Assembly: GCA_011620555.1 (NCBI GenBank)
Contig: WOYY01000066.1
Location: 1-33,288, forward strand
Direction: 5' to 3'
DNA length: 33,288 bases
From: Anaerolineaceae bacterium
Lineage (GTDB): Bacteria; Chloroflexota; Anaerolineae; Anaerolineales; Anaerolineaceae
Below the pieces are notes generated by a model. It was not told the origin of the DNA, did not search any database, and saw nothing but the letters and a program-made list of their open reading frames with translations. The position numbers and the translations under genes were made by a program. The number at the start of each line of letters is the position of its first letter. The stretch's first letter is position 1. Positions 17,680 through 17,974 of this stretch are shown one piece after another.

Positions 17680-17750
17680 ATTATTAGTCAGGAGAGGGTG
17701 GGATTCGAACCTGAAATACCTTGCGGCATCAACCAAAACATCAGGCCAAC

Positions 17751-17783
17751 AAAAGACCACCTGCATTCACAGGTGGTCTTTTT
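17751..17783. terminator. Hairpin terminator in the distal tandem unit
   Basis: A 12-bp stem AAAGACCACCTG/CAGGTGGTCTTT with a 7-nt loop, flanked by A-run and T-run, so active in both directions. Confidence 0.75.
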
Positions 17784-17849
17784 AAGAGCGGAGAGGGTGG
17801 GATTCGAACCTGAAATACCTTGCGGCATCAACCAAAACATCAGGCCAAC

Positions 17850-17882
17850 AAAAGACCACCTGCATTCACAGGTGGTCTTTTT
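17850..17882. terminator. Terminator of tRNA-Ser, proximal tandem unit
   Basis: Identical to the hairpin at 17751-17783. On the minus strand it begins about 5 nt after the tRNA-Ser 3' end, so it is the likely natural terminator of the tRNA gene, later copied with the unit. Confidence 0.8.
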
Positions 17883-17887
17883 AAGAG

Positions 17888-17974
17888 CGGAGAGGGTGGG
17901 ATTCGAACCCACGGTACCTTGCGGTACACACGCACTCCAAGCGCGCGCATTAGGCCGGACTATGCTACCTCTCC
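17888..17974 (-). tRNA. tRNA-Ser(GGA)
   Basis: An 87-nt class II tRNA: acceptor GGAGAGG/CCTCTCC, short D stem, anticodon stem CGCGC/GCGTG with loop TTGGAGT (anticodon GGA), long variable arm GTACC-GCAA-GGTAC, T arm GTGGG-TTCGAAT-CCCAC, discriminator G. CCA is not encoded. Its 3' end borders the 99-bp tandem units. Confidence 0.95.

Follow-up and report, generated by a model that had tools for sequence, protein, structure and literature searches.

How does the end of one tRNA gene come to be repeated, twice and without a single difference, directly behind that gene? The locus at issue lies in a stretch of 33,288 nucleotides (hereafter "the window"), which is contig C55 of a 99-contig draft genome, G000, from an uncultured lineage of the Anaerolineaceae that, with its close relatives, probably represents the genus Brevefilum. 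An initial annotation of the locus had offered two origins for the repeats, serial integration at a tRNA attachment site or a recent unequal duplication, and had suggested that read-through transcripts might behave as tRNA-like or decoy RNAs.

The array starts with an intact tRNA-Ser(GGA) on the minus strand (17887–17974; ARAGORN; RF00005, 52.2 bits) and continues on that strand with two 99-bp units (17790–17888 and 17691–17789) delineated by sequence comparison and Tandem Repeats Finder. Direct comparison finds 99 of 99 bases identical, and the finder reports a 99-bp period over 17691–17909 (2.2 copies, 100% match, 0% indel). Each unit has the same order—the downstream sequence or trailer of the tRNA, with a 14-bp terminator-like hairpin (17850–17881 in unit 1 and, unchanged, 17751–17782 in unit 2; RNA fold), then a degenerate 3′ part of the tRNA, then a 21-base tail. 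The two tails (17790–17810 and 17691–17711) are identical to one another and to the 3′ end of the tRNA without its final GC, and so stop two bases short of the called tRNA end. Within the degenerate part a variable-arm-like hairpin is retained (17814–17829, by RNA fold and alignment; 17715–17730, the same hairpin, by RNA fold) and the T stem is broken in both units, with no hairpin inserted in a loop. The initial annotation's description of the units, i.e., their complete identity, the 21-bp match to the tRNA, the retained variable-arm hairpin, and the disrupted T stem, thus holds throughout.

The units are strongly structured. A 99-nt unit folds to −35.4 kcal/mol as compared to a shuffle mean of −22.6 (z = −4.1; 0 of 200 shuffles as good), and the 14-bp stem itself is stable; the T run forms part of the stem arm (four T on the minus strand, five on the plus strand), and a consensus terminator scan listed the hairpin on neither strand. 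Because ARAGORN and RF00005 call only one tRNA at the serine locus, and neither unit holds a complete cloverleaf, the units are not tRNA genes. Rfam returned three tRNAs in the window and no other family above the gathering score.

Around the array, a consensus scan of 17400–18300 found three promoter-like sites (0.6 expected), none of them within the repeat units. One lies upstream of the serine tRNA on the minus strand (18004–18032; TTCCCA-17-TATAAT, with TG before the second hexamer), and a 13-bp tandem repeat (ACACTTTTTCAAC, 2.9 copies, 18032–18069) begins at this site and extends upstream. On the other side of the array, a convergent gene encodes a DUF2202 protein (16818–17627, plus strand; PF09968), with a terminator-like site past it (17654–17676, plus strand; consensus scan, one found and 1.0 expected). 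The DUF2202 gene also lies downstream of the serine locus in G009 and G001, and different genes occupy this position in other relatives; in G003, an AbiEii-type nucleotidyltransferase gene follows the locus (L086:7207–7962).

The same Ser(GGA) locus was compared at 13 loci of the genus. An automatic criterion found units at five of these (G000, G009, G003, G012, and G014), and units were recognized by eye at five more (G005, G007, G011, G013, and G015) where inserts are overlooked by the 16-base tail test; the loci of G010, G001, and G006 have no defensible unit among the 13. The two-contig genome G009 carries three imperfect 98-bp units behind its tRNA-Ser(GGA), with 82% identity to the window array over 284 bases, and G005 carries about three units of 113 bp. 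Copy number therefore differs between relatives (two in the window's genome, three in G009, about three in G005).

Arrays of this kind are not restricted to serine. In a tail test, the last 32 bases of each tRNA were compared with the next 800 bp, with other tRNAs masked and 200 shuffles as reference; 26 of 31 tRNAs were usable in G000, 46 of 46 in G009, 45 of 46 in G012, and 46 of 46 in G013, the five omitted from G000 and the one from G012 having fewer than 100 bases downstream. Tail recurrence exceeded the best of 200 shuffles for 18 of these 163 tRNAs, when chance would give about 1 in 200. Positive tRNAs were Ser(GGA) in G000; Ser(GGA), Glu(TTC), Glu(CTC), and, weakly, Arg(GCG) in G009; Ser(GGA), Glu(TTC), Glu(CTC), Val(CAC), and Gly(TCC) in G012; and Ala(GGC), Ala(CGC), Glu(TTC) twice, Glu(CTC), Val(CAC), Lys(CTT), and Met(CAT) in G013, where Ala(CGC) is a cross-hit; the Met, Gly, and Arg tRNAs and Glu(TTC) of G009 passed by small margins of 1–3. 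Across the genus, arrays stand behind Glu(TTC), Glu(CTC), Ala, Val, Lys, Gly, and Met tRNAs. A search of 16 genus genomes for the Glu(CTC) T-loop pattern gave 12 places in eight genomes (reversed control, 0), of which ten lie in Glu(CTC) arrays, one starts contig C33 of G000, and one sits beside a Glu tRNA match in G004.

Beyond the genus, seven of 47 tRNAs were positive in G018, a member of another genus of the same family (Ser(TGA) being a cross-hit), with arrays behind Cys, Arg(TCG), Arg(GCG), Ser(GCT), Glu(TTC), and Glu(CTC); its Cys array has 14–15 units of 55 bp. More arrays occur in G023 and G019, both Anaerolineaceae, and in G047, from outside the family. Presence is uneven: none of 31 tRNAs was positive in G031 of the same family (30 of 48 listed loci), and G010 has no clear array at its Ser tRNA or at either Glu tRNA. 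By Tandem Repeats Finder, array periods are regular, at 55–133 bp.

To describe unit anatomy we used 86 units in 34 arrays, including four units from E. coli and 32 from G018, after Ala(CGC) hits onto Ala(GGC) units and one Val(TAC) hit had been dropped. Judged strictly, 83 of the 86 have a broken T arm. The other three comprise a Glu unit of G012 close to an assembly gap and two Ala units of G013 in which the D-loop is interrupted instead. In the G012 Glu(TTC) array (L138), which contains a run of 10 N, a later unit has an intact T arm, perhaps as a result of scaffolding. Behind 64 of the 86 unit tails the native trailer recurs, the misses including last units and the E. coli units. Identity to the unit's own tRNA is 98.5% in the acceptor 3′ strand and 96.0% in the T-stem 3′ strand (values inflated by the fact that units were found by their tails), 84.5% in the T loop and 87.2% in the T-stem 5′ strand where these align, and 96.0 and 84.1% in the 5′ and 3′ strands of the anticodon stem.

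Insertions tend to fall in loops. Of 46 inserts of 12–70 nt, 33 sit in a tRNA loop or at its edge (17.5 expected), although the junctions include alignment noise in variable-arm regions and, as units of related species are not independent, p-values for such counts are too small. Insert length peaks at 17–19 nt (38 of 76 distinct inserts), many of these inserts being hairpins that border the T or anticodon loop. In the Glu(CTC) array of G005 (L144), successive units carry one, three, two, and two copies of the anticodon-loop hairpin. For the Glu-array anticodon-loop hairpins, 13 sequences (all nine 19-nt inserts plus four from a scan that required a hairpin, which biases the following figure) are 100% paired and show both-sided change at two of five pairs. 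Their covariation score of 0.421 was reached by none of 500 shuffles, and the best of six slides scored 0.108; the number of pairs with both-sided change and the number of pair types did not rise above shuffles (294/500 and 500/500, respectively). Inserts of 17, 18, 36, 40, and 57 nt were excluded from this analysis, at least two of which lack one pair by eye. These hairpins argue for some structural constraint. A general role of the insert as an acceptor-pairing terminator was rejected (mean z = −0.9 over 21 arrays); the pattern is clear for Glu(CTC) and Cys and absent in some other arrays and in E. coli Tyr.

We regard the window array, taken as a whole, as best explained as an array of the type known in E. 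coli as tRNA-linked repeats (TLRs), with a probability of roughly 0.55. On the narrower matter of origin, such arrays probably arise as tandem duplications with one breakpoint inside the tRNA and the other past its trailer, after which they grow, shrink, and stay alike. Specifically, the initial duplication would place a partial tRNA and a trailer behind the intact gene, and slippage, unequal exchange, or gene conversion, among the units and between them and the tRNA tail, could then expand, contract, and homogenize the copies. Local tandem duplication accounts for what the units contain and in which order, for the first copy being intact, and for the differences in copy number; as the window units contain no promoter-like site, copies past the first hairpin can lose tRNA function. 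Of the two origins first proposed, it is thus the recent unequal duplication that gains support, each unit consisting of the 3′ part of the tRNA and its own trailer, in tandem, in numbers that vary among relatives. The unit's own tRNA is its best or tied match in 42 of 45 units and strictly best in 10, which weakly suggests concerted evolution—weakly because tails differ little.

Whether the units do anything is a separate question, and action at the RNA level is a tentative proposal that we hold to be possible rather than probable. A polymerase running past the tRNA terminator would meet another terminator-like hairpin and another tRNA-type 3′ end; tRNA 3′-processing enzymes could cut the unit 3′ ends and so free short structured RNAs; and the broken T arm or nested hairpin would prevent these RNAs from maturing as tRNAs. 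The simplest use we can infer is that the units would give a strongly transcribed gene a second terminator and 3′-processing site, yielding short structured RNAs. We give similarly limited credence to a neutral alternative, in which tRNA genes with hairpin terminators are prone to duplication and their silent copies decay and homogenize without any use. Nearly all units lack parts that a tRNA needs, copy number and presence vary fast (with G010 lacking clear Ser or Glu arrays), and no function is known for those E. coli TLRs that lie in tRNA operons (PMC8144298), all of which a useless by-product would explain. It explains less readily that anticodon-loop hairpins hold their pairing through two-sided changes, that tails stay alike while loops diverge (with the caveat that units were selected by tail), and that the same hairpin type occurs at unrelated tRNAs in two families.

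Far less probable is that a small hairpin element targets tRNA loops and persists only where the tRNA copy is a spare one. The clustering of insert lengths at 17–19 nt fits such an element, as does the occurrence of one motif at Ser, Lys, Arg, and Pro tails of different genera. Across 301 genomes of the order, this motif, CCCC-NNNA-GGGG-N-TGATA followed by TTCG, was found 11 times, in four genomes (reversed control, 0), in every case in tail units behind intact Ser(GGA), Ser(CGA), Ser(GCT), Lys(TTT), or Arg(TCG), and the TGATA-TTCG hairpin pattern occurs in no viral contig. A looser form without TTCG occurs at 31 places in seven of 16 genomes (reversed control, 1), 25 of them in tail units, of which one adds Pro(GGG) to the tRNAs concerned, and six elsewhere, one of these six (in G072) possibly being an orphan tail. 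The hairpin therefore belongs mainly to tRNA tails, and a freely dispersed REP-like hairpin was rejected on this count. The same lack of dispersal, at six outside places against one in the reversed control, tells against a mobile hairpin element, for which no target-site duplication is seen by eye and no transposase is known. The same hairpin-TGATAT motif stands in tandem near G018:C12:260902 (L406), with no tRNA called in the surrounding 2.2 kb.

Marginally less plausible still is the integration-scar origin, i.e., that the units were left behind by mobile elements integrating time and again at tRNA attachment sites. The tails of tRNA genes are the usual attachment part, which lends this explanation its initial appeal. 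In addition, of 25 viral contigs carrying the Ser tail, 17 have it inside a called tRNA and eight do not; two of these eight are cut at the edge of the viral sequence, three keep tRNA-like sequence upstream, and in L283, L291, and L300 the tail has no preceding tRNA body. Some of these tRNA-less tails may serve phages of other bacteria for attachment, and none bears on the window locus, for which a phage or island scar was rejected as a candidate. At the loci themselves, 64 of 86 tails precede trailer copies, not element remains, the periods are short and regular, and no duplicated core flanks inserts by eye. No integrase family was found among ten window proteins, nor among the ten nearest ORFs downstream of the Ser locus in relatives (12 loci, two without an ORF), and no mobile element was seen between tails. 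Transposase genes do lie just beyond two Glu arrays, an HTH_Tnp_1 gene past Glu(TTC) in G014 (L149:1307–1591) and an IS110-type gene past Glu(CTC) in G012 (L154:24–1079), but behind the array rather than between tails. Serial integration, as first proposed, is thus left unsupported.

That the array is an artefact of a metagenome-assembled draft of 99 contigs, two of whose other arrays lie at contig ends, is refuted by units of this kind in other species, including the one-contig G047 and the two-contig G009, whose three imperfect units at the same locus are hardly an invention of assembly. Those two arrays in G000, behind Glu(TTC) and Glu(CTC), do bear on copy number. Contig C75 ends in tRNA-Glu(TTC), whose units are found at the end of C68, and C90 starts with tRNA-Glu(CTC), one unit of which starts C33, from which we infer that C75 adjoins C68 and C90 adjoins C33. 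As arrays in this draft thus sit at contig ends, the two copies at the serine locus may be a lower bound. On contigs C2, C67, C74, C75, and C90, several tRNA genes end within about 30 bp of the contig end on the downstream side; two such breaks are due to arrays and the others perhaps to tRNAs shared by species of the metagenome. Arrays may also explain some draft-genome breakpoints in this group.

Several known systems invite comparison with the TLR-type array that we favor. Fragments of tRNA genes left by islands are likewise partial tRNA copies, and in PMC9897764 one such fragment lies at the far end of the element, whereas here tails succeed one another at short spacing, usually with a trailer between them and no element. 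BIME/REP palindromic repeats share hairpins near transcript ends—and rtT-like elements belonging to BIMEs are reported for E. coli in PMC2965389—but these repeats are dispersed through genomes, in contrast to a hairpin motif that sits in tRNA-tail units at 25 of 31 places. RtT RNA (RF00391) is the named product of the E. coli tyrT repeats and hence one TLR case; its model matches E. coli and none of 16 genomes searched (G012, G013, and G018 not among them), such that an RtT homologue was rejected and sequence homology to TLRs, as judged by this model only, was not found.

The TLRs themselves are described, in PMC8144298, as sequences in E. coli tRNA or rRNA operons whose last 18–19 bp equal the 3′ end of the upstream gene. 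First described in 1978, they number 22 at ten loci in K-12, with one to five per locus, and had been assigned no function before that paper; three TLRs behind 5S RNA bind Hfq and CsrA, and RNase E cleavage at the repeated tail has been proposed (same source). For a direct comparison, 15 K-12 stretches with 53 tRNAs, among them the tyrT/tyrV, lysT, argQZYV, lysV, and proK loci, were picked by coordinate and confirmed by annotation. Tail units with 18 of 18 identical bases numbered 14 (Tyr 4, Lys 6, Arg 3, Pro 1) and fell in five stretches; in the other ten, a tail unit was not found. In all 14 units, the identity begins inside the T loop (by eye), and in eight an insert of 64–68 nt lies within the T loop with T-arm sequence before it (aligner), a T-loop break of which we found no mention in the available part of PMC8144298.

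Against this background, the likenesses are many. The window units lie directly behind a tRNA gene, share 21 bp of its 3′ end, and number two. More broadly, both systems place units behind an intact tRNA, end them in a tRNA-identical 3′ end, arrange them partly in tandem, and fill their interior with hairpins, and the tail interruption in the T loop recurs in E. coli units and in the arrays here. The arrays here differ in their often shorter units (55–133 bp) and in copy numbers of up to 14–15 (the Cys array of G018), which exceed the one to five per locus of TLRs, as well as in the existence of anticodon-loop and D-loop inserts; the window array further differs in the terminator-like hairpin in each unit and in a T stem that is broken, not interrupted by an insert. 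Among the best matches of the open literature searched, we found no report of such arrays in Chloroflexota.

A broader reading, which we put forward as rather speculative, is that loop-interrupted tRNA-tail arrays form a general convergent class in Enterobacteria and Anaerolineales, in which a hairpin set at a loop edge is amplified together with the tail behind an intact gene, and in which the hairpin's position reflects either a process dedicated to it or a common RNA function linked to tRNA 3′-end processing. By the stated features tested, the E. coli TLRs—a system that the initial annotation did not name—appear to be the nearest known counterpart and of the same kind, a resemblance without detected homology. 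With TLR anatomy in a distant phylum, behind many tRNAs, in up to 14–15 copies, and with nested hairpins, what was a curiosity of one lineage becomes comparable, and the many arrays allow one to ask what stays constant (the tail, the T-loop break, the nested hairpin) and to test whether TLRs are leftovers of mutation, serve as backup 3′ ends, or give rise to small RNAs.
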